Origin: Kiloniella laminariae DSM 19542
Lineage (GTDB): Bacteria; Pseudomonadota; Alphaproteobacteria; Kiloniellales; Kiloniellaceae
NCBI RefSeq assembly: GCF_000374005.1
Contig: NZ_KB893157.1
Location: 65,950-129,949 of the forward strand
Direction of reading: 5' to 3'
DNA: 64,000 nt
The position numbers were made by a program, and so were the translations under genes. The first letter of the stretch is position 1. Each line of letters begins with the position of its first letter. The notes beneath the pieces are model-generated. The model was not told the DNA's origin. It did no database searches and saw only the letters and a program-made list of their open reading frames with translations. Below are positions 31,539 through 36,354 of this stretch, piece by piece.

Positions 31539-33737
31539 ATGCCTGCTAAACATCTGTTACAAAGAGGGGCCTCTCATGTTGCCCTGTTTCTGGGGATTAC
31601 CGCGTCTTTACCTTTCACAACAATTTCTTTGTCAGCTGAAGAAGTGAAAAAGGAACAAAATGTGACCACCGATAAATGGGGGGCACACATAGAAGTGGAA
31701 GGGAAGTACGGAACTGACCGGCATATCGGGGAAAGTACTTTATTTGTGCCTCTGTTTCAGGACGAGGACAGTATGGTGTTCCTCGACCTAAGAGGGAAGC
31801 TTGATAATAACCAGTCCCGAGAAGCAAATGTGGGCTTGGGCTATCGACGAATAGTCAATGAAGACTGGCTTGTTGGTGGGTATGGCTTCTATGACCGACG
31901 ACATTCACCCGAAGGAAACGACTTTAACCAGATGACCTTTGGGGCAGAAGCTCTAACCGAAAACCTCGACTTGCGGGTGAACGGTTATTTGCCATTTGGG
32001 GATACAATCAAAAGTTCAAGCAAGTTCGACAGTGTTCAGCTCAATGGCAGCTCGATCACAGTGCAAGAGGGGCAGGAAAGAGCTTTGAAGGGCTTTGACG
32101 GTGAGGTTGGCCATACCCTGCCTGTATTATCCCTGATGCCGGATAAATCGGATGAAATGCGTGTCTACCTTGGTGGATACCATTTTTGGGAAGAGGGGGT
32201 GGATAATGTCACCGGGCCTCGTTTCAGGGCAGAGTATCGAATGAATGATATTTTTATTGAAGGAAGCAGAATCAGTTTGAATGCGGAGATGCAACACGAT
32301 ACCCCCCGCGGACGCCAAGGCTTTGTTGGTCTGAAATTCCGTATTCCTCTTCAGCCGGATATTGCCCGTGGCCAATCCAGGCTTTCGCGGTTAGAGAAAA
32401 GAATGACCGAAACAGTTGTCCGGGATGTTGATGTCGTTGCGCAGGCAGGGTCCTTTGGCGAGGAGATGCCCGCGATTGATATGGAAACGGGGCAGGCTTT
32501 GGTTAATCTGAATGTTATTGAAGGTCAAACCGGAAGTGAGCTGAAAGCGGGAATCGAAACGGCTGAAGCGGCAAAAGTGACTTTTGTTAACGGTAAGGGG
32601 CAAGTTCTTAACATCGATGATACGATTAACTTACAAGCAGGACAGAGAGTCAGGGGCAATTTCAGGGTAAAGCATCCGACGACCGGGCGGGTGATGAATT
32701 TTGGTAATACAAGTGTTCATGGAACGGATGCAACGAAGCATGTATTTGCTATGAATGATAATTCATCCCTGTCAGGAATGGCAATTTCCGGAGGCTCCCA
32801 CGGGGTTCACTCCAGTGGTAAAAGCAACGTAACCCTTAGTGATATTCAGATTAGTGCCACGCGTGAAGCTGGTGTCAATTTTGAAGACGGTGCCAATTTG
32901 AAAATTTCCAGGCTGGATGTTTCAAATCTGGATTTTGACAACGCGGATGGTTTTTCCAATGCCAATCCCAACAATACTGTAATCGGTGTAGGGTTGCGGA
33001 TTATCAGCTCTACTGGCGTTGAGGTGGAGGGGTATCACGCTGACTATCTTGGAACCGGAATACTGTCTAATAATGTTCGGGATCTGAAGGTTACGAACTC
33101 GACAATCTCGCGGACGAGAAAAGAAGGTATGGTGCATCATTATCTCCACGATGCATCTTTTGATAACGTAGATATTGATAAAACGGGTGCTGATGGCGCA
33201 GCTTTTATTGTTTCAGCTGATGTTTCCTACCACAATTCCGCTCTCACCAATCTTGGTGCGATGAACAAGCTTGGTAATTATAGTGGCGTAAATATAAGCG
33301 GCTTTTCCAGTGATGGAACGATCATTGTCGGTTCGACAGAAAACAAAAACTATACCTTTGATAACCTGAAGATAACTAATGCATCAAACAGCGGTATGAT
33401 GCTTCAGGAAATCAGGGATTCAAGTTTTAACAATATTGAAATCAGCAATGTTGATATCATAGGTATCCAGTTGATGCGGATGATGCGTGATGTTGAAAAT
33501 ATCGAATTTGATAATGTTCAGATCAGCAATGCACAAAATGCCGGTTTCTGGATTATGGGTGATGTCAGTGATATCCAGGCTGATATCAGGACGACGGATA
33601 CGGCGACTGCCTGTGGTCGTTCAAAATGGATGGCGGCAAACCTCACTCAAAGTGGGGCTCAGGAACTTCGTATCAATGGGACAGTTCTTGCGCCTGCAGA
33701 TGTGAGCACAGCCTGTCAGGAGGTGTCAAATTTCTGA
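31539..33737 (+). CDS. Inverse autotransporter (intimin/invasin-type barrel) with right-handed beta-helix passenger
   Basis: 732-residue outer-membrane protein. Signal peptide about 1-33 (cleavage near SLSA/EE). Residues about 45-280 form an inverse-autotransporter beta domain: 'GKYGTDRHIGESTLFVPLF', 'VGLGYRRIVNEDWLVGGYGFYD', 'GFVGLKFRIPL', alternating barrel strands ending in a linker helix ('LSRLEKRMTETVVRD'). From about 400 to 690 the sequence is a parallel beta-helix of 'SxxxNxxIxxxxxxGI' type coils (e.g. 'SSFNNIEISNVDIIGIQL'), and two cysteines (692, 726) may close a C-terminal cap. Usual intimin/invasin passengers are Ig-like; here it is a pectate-lyase-like solenoid. Visibly more AT-rich than its neighbours, so gain by transfer is possible. 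A Fur box implies expression under iron limitation. Adhesin or polysaccharide-binding role is inference. Confidence 0.83.
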   Translation: MPAKHLLQRGASHVALFLGITASLPFTTISLSAEEVKKEQNVTTDKWGAHIEVEGKYGTDRHIGESTLFVPLFQDEDSMVFLDLRGKLDNNQSREANVGLGYRRIVNEDWLVGGYGFYDRRHSPEGNDFNQMTFGAEALTENLDLRVNGYLPFGDTIKSSSKFDSVQLNGSSITVQEGQERALKGFDGEVGHTLPVLSLMPDKSDEMRVYLGGYHFWEEGVDNVTGPRFRAEYRMNDIFIEGSRISLNAEMQHDTPRGRQGFVGLKFRIPLQPDIARGQSRLSRLEKRMTETVVRDVDVVAQAGSFGEEMPAIDMETGQALVNLNVIEGQTGSELKAGIETAEAAKVTFVNGKGQVLNIDDTINLQAGQRVRGNFRVKHPTTGRVMNFGNTSVHGTDATKHVFAMNDNSSLSGMAISGGSHGVHSSGKSNVTLSDIQISATREAGVNFEDGANLKISRLDVSNLDFDNADGFSNANPNNTVIGVGLRIISSTGVEVEGYHADYLGTGILSNNVRDLKVTNSTISRTRKEGMVHHYLHDASFDNVDIDKTGADGAAFIVSADVSYHNSALTNLGAMNKLGNYSGVNISGFSSDGTIIVGSTENKNYTFDNLKITNASNSGMMLQEIRDSSFNNIEISNVDIIGIQLMRMMRDVENIEFDNVQISNAQNAGFWIMGDVSDIQADIRTTDTATACGRSKWMAANLTQSGAQELRINGTVLAPADVSTACQEVSNF

Positions 33738-33882
33738 GGAACCCGGATTTCCAGAGAAAGACTTGTCCCGATACAATTGGATAGTTCTGGGCGAATCCGT
33801 AGAAAGGCTTATTTCGCGGTTGACCCTCTGAAAAAAGCTGATTAGGGTAGCCTCCGAATTAACCCCGAGTGGAACAGGTTGT

Positions 33883-34050
33883 ATGTCTAATTCCGGTTCA
33901 TATCTGGCCCCGCGCGCCGCAAACACAGCGAAATCTCTTCGCCGTGCGTTTGCTGCTGCGCGTCCAGTTGTAACCGTGACAACCACCTGGACCACCATTA
34001 CCACCACCCCTGTCACCACCATGAAGGTGAAGATGGGCGGCTGCAGGTAG
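33883..34050 (+). CDS. Thr-rich leader peptide of the asd attenuator
   Basis: 55-codon ORF (too short for many gene finders). Residues 31-46 are 'TVTTTWTTITTTPVTT': 11 threonines in 16, with Ile and Val, closely resembling the thrL pattern of enterobacteria. A GGAACAGG lies before the ATG. The stop codon is 26 bases before an intrinsic terminator, and asd follows. The role would be to report charged tRNA-Thr by ribosome stalling. Upstream half of the peptide is basic and unremarkable. The gene itself is seen; control of asd is inferred from layout. Confidence 0.75.
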   Translation: MSNSGSYLAPRAANTAKSLRRAFAAARPVVTVTTTWTTITTTPVTTMKVKMGGCR

Positions 34051-34108
34051 ATCCTCTCGGGAATAAAGGCTGATTTAAGGGCCGTCCCATTGAGGGGCGG
34101 CCCTTTTT
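34035..34108 (+). promoter_or_regulatory. Transcription attenuator of asd (antiterminator and terminator arms)
   Basis: Terminator: AAGGGCCGTCCC (34077-34088) pairs with GGGGCGGCCCTT, followed by TTTTTCTTT. Competing arm: GGGCGGC at 34035-34041, inside the last codons of the leader peptide, can pair with GCCGTCCC of the terminator's left arm. A ribosome stalled on the Thr codons (up to 34020) leaves that arm free and prevents termination; a ribosome at the stop codon (34050) covers it and lets the terminator form. Confidence 0.75.
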
Positions 34109-34122
34109 CTTTAGGGCTTCGC

Positions 34123-34203: not shown

Positions 34204-35220
34204 ATGGGTCACAAGATTGCAGTTATGGGCGCAACAGGCGCCGTCGGTCGTGAAATCCTGACAACGCTTTCCGAGCGTGGCTTTGATATCAAGGACATCA
34301 CCGTTCTGGCATCCAGCCGTTCTACTGGCACCAAGGTGTCTTACGGCGAAGTAGGGGAACTGACAGTACAGAATCTGGCGACCTTTGACTTCAAGGGCAT
34401 CGACATTGTGCTCTCCTCACCAGGAGGCTCGGTTTCAGCCGAGTACTCTCCCAAGGCAGCCGCGGCAGGTGCTGTGGTTATCGACAATACATCCCATTTC
34501 CGCATGGATCCGGATGTGCCGTTGATCGTACCGGAAGTAAACCCTGAAGCACTGGCGGGTTACAAGAAGCGCAATATCATTGCCAACCCGAACTGCTCGA
34601 CCATCCAGATGGTACATGTGCTCAAGCCCCTGCATGAACTGGGTGTGGTCAAGCGTGTGGTGGTATCAACCTATCAGGCGGTTTCCGGTGCGGGTAAAGA
34701 CGCGATGGACGAGCTGTTCAACCAGACACGGGGCATCTTCGTAAATGATCCGATCAAGAAAGAATGTTTTACCAAGCAGATTGCTTTCAACGTGATCCCG
34801 CACATCGATGTCTTCATGGATGATGGTTATACCAAGGAAGAATGGAAGATGATGGTCGAGACCAAGAAAATTCTCGATCCGAAAATCAAGGTCACAGCAA
34901 CCTGTGTCCGCGTACCTGTTTTCATTGGTCATGCTGAAGCTGTTTCGATCGAGTTCGAAAAGGAAGTGACGGTTGAGCAGGCGCGCAAGGCCCTGAAAGA
35001 CACACCGGGCATTACGGTCATTGATCACCGCCAGGACGAGGGCTATGTCACACCGCAGGAAGCTGCGGGTGAAGATGCCACCTTCGTCAGCCGTATTCGT
35101 GCCGATCCTACTGTTGATAATGGTTTATGTTTGTGGGTTGTCGCGGACAACCTGCGTAAGGGCGCGGCCCTTAATGCGGTTCAGATTGCTGAACTGCTGA
35201 TAAAGGATCACCTCAAGTAA
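34204..35220 (+). CDS. asd: Aspartate-semialdehyde dehydrogenase
   Basis: NADPH enzyme reducing aspartyl phosphate to the semialdehyde, the shared step to lysine/diaminopimelate, threonine and methionine. 'VMGATGAVGREIL' (nucleotide loop), 'SSPGGSVSAEYSP', catalytic cysteine in 'NPNCSTIQMV' (about residue 132) and 'VRVPVFIGHAEAVSIEFE' are all present; 338 aa. Preceded by a Thr-rich leader peptide and attenuator, which suggests control by threonine supply, and followed by three tandem terminators. Confidence 0.97.
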   Translation: MGHKIAVMGATGAVGREILTTLSERGFDIKDITVLASSRSTGTKVSYGEVGELTVQNLATFDFKGIDIVLSSPGGSVSAEYSPKAAAAGAVVIDNTSHFRMDPDVPLIVPEVNPEALAGYKKRNIIANPNCSTIQMVHVLKPLHELGVVKRVVVSTYQAVSGAGKDAMDELFNQTRGIFVNDPIKKECFTKQIAFNVIPHIDVFMDDGYTKEEWKMMVETKKILDPKIKVTATCVRVPVFIGHAEAVSIEFEKEVTVEQARKALKDTPGITVIDHRQDEGYVTPQEAAGEDATFVSRIRADPTVDNGLCLWVVADNLRKGAALNAVQIAELLIKDHLK

Positions 35221-35270: not shown

Positions 35271-35380
35271 CGTGGAGTTTTCTCCACGCCCTTTTTTTGA
35301 TCAACCCTTGCCGTGGAGTTTTCTCCACGCCCTTTTTTTGATCAATCCTTGCCGTGGAGTATTCTCCACGCCCTTTTTTT
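35271..35380 (+). terminator. Three tandem copies of an intrinsic terminator (41-bp repeat)
   Basis: The hairpin CGTGGAGTTTTCTCCACG plus CCC and seven Ts occurs at 35271, 35312 and 35353 with an exact 41-base period; spacers (TTGATCAAYCCTTGC) are also copied. The third copy has A for T in the loop and ends at the stop codon of the converging regulator gene. Confidence 0.9.
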
Positions 35381-35382
35381 GA

Positions 35383-36354
35383 TCATATCGGGCCGAAGTG
35401 CTGCAGGTACTCGGTCGTTGTAACGCCCATATGGCGTGAAAAACAGCGGCGCATTTTCTGGAGGTCACCAAAACCGCAGAGGTTGGCGACCTGTTTCAGC
35501 GAAACGCCCCGGGCGAGCAGGGTTCTGGCCTGATCGAGCCGGGTCAGTTCAACAAACTGGACGGGAGAAACGCCGAGGGACCGGTTGAATTTGCGATCCA
35601 TGGTGCGGGGAGACATTTTTGCTTCCCTTGCCAGTTCAGCCAGTGTCCAGTTGTGGGCCGGATTGTTTGAGATCTTGTCCAGCAGCTTCATCAGCGGCGG
35701 TTCGATCTGAATCTGTGCCTGTAGCAGGTGCGAGAACTGCTGTTGTCCACCATTGCGTCGAAGATAGACCACCAGTTCCTGGGCCACGCCGAGCGAGAGA
35801 CCCGTGCCGTGATCTTCCTCAATGATCGAGAGGGCCAGATCAATACCGGTTGAGACACCAGCAGAAGTGTAGATCTGCCCCGATTTTGTATAGATGGTGT
35901 CGAGCTCCCATAACACATCGGGATAGCGGTCTTTTACCATCCGGGCGCGGGACCAGTGGGTTGTTGCACGTTTGCCGTCAAGGACACCAGCTTCGGCCAG
36001 CAGCAGGGCGCCGGAGCAGACAGAGATCAGGCGCTGGTCACTTTGTTGCAAGGTGAAATTCTGAAGGCAGTCACATAGATCCCTGTTCTCAAGGAGGGCG
36101 TCAATGCCTTCTCCTCCCGGGATCAGAAGGTCGGCAGGTTTGGGTTGTTTTTTTAGTGATCCGCTTGCAACAATTTCCAGACCACAGGATGTTTGTACAT
36201 TTTTGCCATCGGGGCTGATAAAGCGGTGGTTGTAGGCATTGCCAGTTGATGAAACCGCGCTGTGAAAGGCCTGCACCGGGCCGCTGATATCAAGCAGGTT
36301 GACCTGGTCAAAAACCAGAACATCGATCTGTCGTTGTCGGGGAGGTTTTGTCAT
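35383..36354 (-). CDS. GlxA family regulator (DJ-1/PfpI domain plus AraC helix-turn-helix)
   Basis: 323-residue transcription factor. N-terminal DJ-1/PfpI-like domain (about 8-190) with 'DQVNLLDISGPVQAFH' and nucleophile-elbow-like 'SVCSGALLLAEAGVLDGKRATTHW'; C-terminal AraC/XylS double helix-turn-helix (about 215-320, 'WTLAELAREAKMSPRTMDRKF', 'VANLCGFGDLQKMRRCF'). The ATG at 36354 begins the domain; 67 open codons upstream are probably not translated. Divergent from an MFS transporter, its most likely target. Effector unknown. Confidence 0.9.
   Translation of the reverse strand: MTKPPRQRQIDVLVFDQVNLLDISGPVQAFHSAVSSTGNAYNHRFISPDGKNVQTSCGLEIVASGSLKKQPKPADLLIPGGEGIDALLENRDLCDCLQNFTLQQSDQRLISVCSGALLLAEAGVLDGKRATTHWSRARMVKDRYPDVLWELDTIYTKSGQIYTSAGVSTGIDLALSIIEEDHGTGLSLGVAQELVVYLRRNGGQQQFSHLLQAQIQIEPPLMKLLDKISNNPAHNWTLAELAREAKMSPRTMDRKFNRSLGVSPVQFVELTRLDQARTLLARGVSLKQVANLCGFGDLQKMRRCFSRHMGVTTTEYLQHFGPI

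Follow-up and report, generated by a model that had tools for sequence, protein, structure and literature searches.

Does the short, threonine-rich open reading frame (ORF) that precedes asd in the window, by which we mean the whole 64,000-nucleotide stretch of DNA analyzed here, make expression of the gene dependent on threonine supply? The asd product makes the precursor of threonine, in a step common to the lysine, methionine, and threonine branches.

Leader ORF and intrinsic terminator upstream of asd

The identity of the downstream gene was borne out by two family models scoring over their cut-offs, TIGR01296 (Table 1) and NF011456; the genome is 4.4 Mb, and the relatives of its asd are alphaproteobacterial. 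As originally predicted, a 55-codon ORF with 11 Thr codons in a run of 16 lies upstream, and its stop codon is 26 bases from the stem of an intrinsic terminator. A short ORF rich in codons for a pathway end product, which would come first in the transcript, thus precedes asd, and a terminator stands between this ORF and the gene. Searches of the leader peptide against Pfam and NCBIfam at an E value of 0.001 returned no match.

Table 1 Features of the asd locus (positions are those of the window)
Feature	Position	Strand	Description
Upstream neighbor	31539-33737		732-residue protein, inverse autotransporter beta-domain plus beta-helix
Promoter-like motif	33820-33848	+	TTGACC-N17-TAGGGT; leader ATG 34 nt downstream
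Leader peptide ORF	33883-34050	+	MSNSGSYLAPRAANTAKSLRRAFAAARPVVTVTTTWTTITTTPVTTMKVKMGGCR*; 55 codons, ATG to TAG
Leader control stretch	33973-34020	+	TVTTTWTTITTTPVTT; 11 Thr codons in 16
1:2 hairpin (anti-antiterminator)	33998-34050	+	33998-34002/34046-34050, 34007-34014/34032-34039, 34017-34020/34026-34029
Segment 2, putative antiterminator 5' arm	34032-34041	+	GATGGGCGGC; beneath the last leader codons, K-M-G-G
Intrinsic terminator	34077-34112	+	Stem of 12 bp with an ATTGA loop and a T-rich tail; invariant in all nine species
Terminator stem	34077-34105	+	AAGGGCCGTCCC-ATTGA-GGGGCGGCCCTT, 12 pairs, then TTTCTTTA
Segment 3, putative antiterminator 3' arm	34081-34091	+	GCCG-U-CCCAUU; part of the terminator 5' arm plus loop
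asd	34204-35220	+	Aspartate-semialdehyde dehydrogenase, putatively regulated gene; TIGR01296, 464.6 bits (cut-off, 324.2)
Tandem array	35271-35385		Directly after asd; terminator-like unit, period 41, 2.8 copies, 97% matches

Matches to asd were found in 40 of the 41 genomes searched (E value, 0.001), that in G021 being weak and partial. All nine congeneric species carry the Thr-rich leader ORF, at 53 to 55 codons with insertions and deletions of whole codons only, and in all nine the stem, loop, and tail of the terminator are identical. The Thr codons differ at the third base, and the KVKM tail is constant. Across these leaders pN/pS was 1.01 for the N-terminal part, 0.40 for the Thr block, and 0.30 for the tail, the last value covering sequence that doubles as RNA structure; no protein-level constraint is seen in the N-terminal half. 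The Thr block is kept, and the other two frames carry 1 to 4 stops each in the nine species, but among four leaders of equal length the annotated frame was the least constrained, its pN/pS being 1.07 while the other frames gave 0.76 and 0.34, a comparison based on few changes (38 differences summed over pairs).

A motif of the form TTGACC-N17-TA(G/C/A)G(G/T)T stands 34 to 40 nt 5' of the leader ATG in all nine species, and we infer from its sequence that it is probably the promoter; a consensus promoter scan of the window did not list it. A different arrangement would be that the ORF is a small independent gene with its own terminator and that asd has a separate promoter after that terminator. 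Its length of 53 to 55 codons is long for a leader peptide and would suit such a gene, as would a weak TTG(G)(G/A)C-N17-TAGGCT motif just 5' of asd in five of the nine species. That motif, however, lies at most 35 nt from the asd start and is missing in the window, the N-terminal part of the ORF is unconstrained while its Thr block is kept, no protein family matches it, and Thr/Lys-rich ORFs with unlike N-terminal parts recur 5' of asd in other families (see below). We therefore regard an independent gene as unlikely and treat the ORF as a leader of asd.

Outside the genus, a Thr leader ORF adjoining asd was found at none of 21 loci from relatives, of which 13 belong to the family but to other genera and 8 to different families. 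Two loci in the window's family have Thr-rich 11-codon frames at −576 to −540 from asd (L022, VTTTTTTTAPN; L026, VTTTTTETAPN), which fall outside the scored stretch and were left out of the counts. Small ORFs resembling secreted proteins, some of them Thr-rich, lie 5' of asd at five loci from other families (L018, L028, L029, L030, and L031) and were likewise left out of the leader counts; the one at L028, a Thr-containing ORF of this secreted-like kind, was considered as a leader and rejected.

Downstream of asd, a DJ-1/AraC-type regulator is encoded on the opposite strand. At the site directly after asd, some of the nine congeneric species have a single copy of their own terminator, and others have several copies of theirs.

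Within the same genome, no Thr-rich short ORF was found in the ~0.9 to 1.5 kb upstream of two homoserine dehydrogenase loci, threonine synthase, or an aspartate kinase identified from sequence alone. The homoserine dehydrogenase and threonine synthase matches are on other contigs, and if hom is in an operon, a leader could sit further up. Three more kinases matched PF00696; a Thr-containing short frame at one of these loci lies inside the neighboring gene.

Mutually exclusive pairings predicted in the leader RNA

Overlapping the control codons is a hairpin (1:2) that pairs Thr, Pro, and Val codons with the KVKMG stretch. Over the nine species, 150 of 153 cells are paired, and in the window itself 1 of 17 pairs is mismatched. 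Two pairs show compensatory change: a C-G/A-U exchange separating four species from five and a C-G to U-A change in L005. Only 1 of 500 shuffles equaled the paired-cell count and 1 of 500 the covariation score; weaker measures were matched more often (doubly changed pairs by 47 of 500 shuffles, further pair types by 375 of 500), so that two of five measures are not striking, and two compensatory changes are few events.

The putative antiterminator joins GAUGGGCGGC to GCCG-U-CCCAUU with one bulged U. The original prediction that the left arm of the terminator can pair beneath the last leader codons was correct as to place, K-M-G-G, but the pairing involves more than GGGCGGC, since GAUGGGCGGC pairs with both the left arm and the loop. 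Among the nine species, 86 of 90 cells are paired, one of the ten pairs being broken in each of four species. The geometry of attenuation that had been claimed is completed by the 1:2 hairpin over the Thr codons, and its antiterminator is a candidate element. An alignment of relatives had been proposed to reveal conserved Thr codons, a conserved terminator, and covariation in the antiterminator arm; the first two are kept in all nine species, and no covariation was detected in the antiterminator among them.

We modeled the nascent RNA with the ribosome edge assumed to lie 13 nt past the start of the A-site codon. Before terminator arm 4 was transcribed, stalls on Ile-Thr-Thr-Thr-Pro-Val-Thr/Lys-Thr allowed the antiterminator core to form in 9 of 9 species (in L002 and L003 at some earlier codons too), and its peak probability was 0.94 in five species, 0.90 in L010, 0.75 in L009, 0.57 in L007, and 0.56 in L005. 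Stalls further upstream favored the 1:2 hairpin under the same setting, and in L003 the 1:2 pairing was partial (0.35) with no ribosome nearby. The zero antiterminator probability at the tail and stop is a product of the model's masking and is no finding. Once arm 4 was transcribed, the terminator had a probability of 1.00 at every ribosome position in all nine species, and therefore the switch must be kinetic. Shuffled flanks gave an equally large modeled switch in 26 of 200 trials for L002, 14 of 200 for L004, and 60 of 200 for L010; the segment-arm duplex test alone gave P values of 0.11 for L002, 0.24 for L005, 0.85 for L007, and 0.90 for L010. A general occupancy measure was uninformative in the window's genus. 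The leader and the terminator are firm. The RNA switch, which draws on conservation plus analogy with other lineages, is less secure, because the antiterminator is without covariation and single-sequence shuffles were not beaten.

Taken together, the locus is best explained, at a probability of roughly 0.8, as ribosome-mediated attenuation of transcription, through which asd expression would depend on charged tRNA-Thr. RNA polymerase would start upstream of the leader, with a ribosome trailing it. When Thr is sufficient, the ribosome would reach K-V-K-M-G-G-C-R-stop and cover segment 2, and the terminator (3:4) would form; a stall on I-T-T-T-P-V-T/K-T would instead leave segment 2 free to pair with segment 3 (2:3), and polymerase would continue into asd. 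With no ribosome, or one stalled further upstream, the 1:2 hairpin would hold segment 2 and transcription would terminate. Promoter activity, translation, stalling, and termination and read-through in vivo are thus expected of this arrangement. Since the tail's Lys and Met codons offer no relief from termination in the model, the window's genus would sense Thr and perhaps Ile as well.

Thr/Lys leader ORFs recur upstream of asd across the class

In a draw of 192 genomes across the class, 180 matched the asd query, some of them weakly. Upstream regions numbered 257 (30 from relatives including the window, 80 from named records, and 147 from the class draw), of which 256 were scored, one being too short; 30 were without a start-codon anchor, part of the matches listed were included, and a few places are doubled in the set (e.g., L024/L032, L058/L144, and L065/L148). 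A Thr-only scan with a threshold of 5 Thr in 12 codons returned 41 of the 256 regions in sense orientation, relatives included, and 2 in antisense. A Thr/Lys-weighted leader score of at least 5 was reached by 36 of 256 regions in sense, 1 in antisense, and 0.1 per shuffled set; the window scored 10.45, and no antisense or shuffled region reached 6. Many of the matches are close relatives; nine come from the window's genus, and rhizobia supply another block.

Two regions scoring at least 5, L033 and L106, were rejected for having no Thr/Lys end block or for being in the wrong place, leaving 34 accepted. Among regions scoring below 5, L146, L209, L162, L229, and L130 were rejected as ends of upstream coding genes, and others were dropped likewise. 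L134, L209, L255, and L028 were dropped from the 41 Thr-only matches.

In the scan segments of 17 chosen representatives (192 residues; 16 representatives meet the Thr-only cut), Thr made up 53% of residues; Lys, a residue that plays no part in the scan, was second commonest at 19%, or 15% if the four dropped Thr-only matches, which have no Lys, are included. Judged by reading, 13 of the 147 class-draw loci have a Thr/Lys leader (L112, L114, L116, L131, L136, L150, L176, L185, L215, L221, L223, L246, and L250), as do 18 of the 80 named records, among them Rhizobium, Sinorhizobium, Neorhizobium, Roseibium, Hoeflea, Chthonobacter, and Thalassobaculum. The N-terminal parts of leaders from different families are unlike. 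At L246 and L250, the Thr/Lys leader and a terminator are followed by an apparent small extra gene and then asd, and control of a two-gene operon is therefore possible there.

Two apparent outputs in other lineages

Two families were searched more fully, and a Thr/Lys leader was found at 11 of 16 asd loci in the first and at 11 of 14 in the second, with L284 and L291 left out as ambiguous. By eye, a hairpin and a run of at least 4 T follow the leader at 11 of 11 loci in the first family, and a hairpin and T-run follow it at L112, L282, and L286 in the second. At six other loci of the second family, L131 and its five genus mates L287, L289, L290, L292, and L293, the hairpin after the Thr/Lys leader is strong and conserved but has no T-tail. 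A third family has a leader at two of six full loci, one of which is the same place as L215.

At 12 of 16 loci tested outside the window's genus, the best partner of the terminator arm extends to a point 8 to 15 nt beyond the leader and would therefore lie under a ribosome at the stop codon; at the remaining four it ends at −1, −1, 18, and 22. Compared with 1,000 shuffles, the duplex at the 12 loci gave a Fisher P value of 8e-8 (single P values, 0.001 to 0.34), for a set in which four loci are of one family and both loci and arms were picked after the sequences had been seen. When each of nine lineages was represented by a single locus, the P value was 4e-6; it was 4e-5 after removal of the two lineages without a T-tail and 0.002 when the best single locus was removed as well. 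Several lineages thus combine a leader, a possible antiterminator, and an intrinsic terminator.

A loose terminator scan found candidates at 18 of 36 leader loci and 99 of 220 leaderless loci; the count did not separate the two groups because the scan is loose and many leaders are rhizobial. No clear intrinsic terminator was seen at 13 rhizobial loci, and the loose scan of 11 rhizobial loci found long interrupted hairpins in 2 (L102 and L105). The rhizobial consensus fold pairs GCTCTCT, 3' of the leader stop, with AGAGAGC, 5' of the asd start, in 12 of 13 loci, without covariation, and places a hairpin across the KTTTKTV codons. From these sequences, the Rhizobiaceae look like cases of Shine-Dalgarno sequestration, i.e., control of asd translation.

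Elsewhere in the alphaproteobacteria, then, asd genes with Thr/Lys leaders would sense both end products. We somewhat favor the broader view that leader-peptide control of asd is widespread and mostly bispecific for Thr and Lys in the class, with two outputs (transcription termination or Shine-Dalgarno sequestration), and that this control has been narrowed in the window's genus to Thr, there with a complete three-state switch.

The attenuation could also be real and its signal something other than Thr charging, either a riboswitch RNA or a nascent peptide that stalls the ribosome. The spacer 3' of the leader stop, CCTCTCGGGAATAAAGGCT, is nearly wholly invariant among the congeneric species, beyond the needs of the three helices, as such a signal might require. 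Thr/Lys codons, however, are what recurs between lineages, and no Rfam family was found at the gathering score in the window stretch, which gave sub-threshold matches only (Thr_leader among them), nor in two sister loci, seven loci from rhizobia or related groups, or 10 other leaders. A different signal thus appears improbable, and sensing of Thr charging remains the preferred account.

Comparison with known systems

The closest published case is SEP5 of Sinorhizobium meliloti. As given in the accessible part of a 2023 Ribo-seq paper, SEP5 is translated, is rich in Thr at its 3' end, contains six Thr codons and three Lys codons, lies in the 5' untranslated region of an "aspartate dehydrogenase" gene, which we take to be asd, and is a possible leader peptide "conserved only in Sinorhizobium" (PMC10117765). 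Consistent with that part of the description, the Sinorhizobium loci L090 and L091 end in SKTTAKTTTKTV before asd, with 6 Thr and 3 Lys codons. SEP5 differs from the leader in the window in joining Lys to Thr, in having no clear intrinsic terminator, and in its apparent Shine-Dalgarno sequestration. Contrary to the restricted distribution given in the part of the paper seen, a SEP5-like ORF was found in other Rhizobiaceae.

The original prediction knew of no described asd case in alphaproteobacteria; the SEP5 suggestion, as far as the accessible portion of that paper goes, amends this, and our literature search found no other asd attenuator and little on supply-dependent tuning of asd in the alphaproteobacteria, most subscription journals being outside its coverage. 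The word asd is absent from the main text, as accessible, of a survey of terminator-based attenuation (PMC2965389) and of a paper on alphaproteobacterial RNA motifs (PMC1273637). What appears to be new is the recurrence, within the class, of Thr/Lys leader ORFs linked to asd, since in the literature, to the extent accessible, they were found suggested for Sinorhizobium only.

Action in trans by the terminated leader RNA or peptide, with cis control of asd secondary, has a precedent in the class in rnTrpL/peTrpL of S. meliloti (PMC10117765, accessible part), but the N-terminal part of the leader evolves freely, and we consider such action very improbable.

A leader in which Thr and Lys codons are both counted would act as a simple gate on two end products, and it would account for the short ORFs 5' of asd, SEP5 included. 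Because such leaders recur in many families and have two apparent outputs, they lend themselves to comparing how attenuators originate and how their read-out changes.

The trp and ilv leader-peptide attenuators of alphaproteobacteria belong to the same mechanism class and serve other amino acids and genes; trpL is named in the accessible part of PMC10117765, and an ilvB leader in that of PMC1273637. Against the Rfam family of the enterobacterial system (Thr_leader, RF00506; thrABC, thrL), the window scored 21.1 bits (gathering score, 55; E value, 0.16), which is outside the family, and its leader precedes asd rather than thrA or thrABC. The two systems differ further in that ours is alphaproteobacterial and has the longer leader, and homology is not claimed. 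The thrABC leader of enterobacteria has a Thr-rich leader peptide, mutually exclusive hairpins, and an intrinsic terminator, and the asd leader described here is like it in its peptide, in its terminator, in preceding an aspartate-family gene, and, as predicted, in its hairpins.
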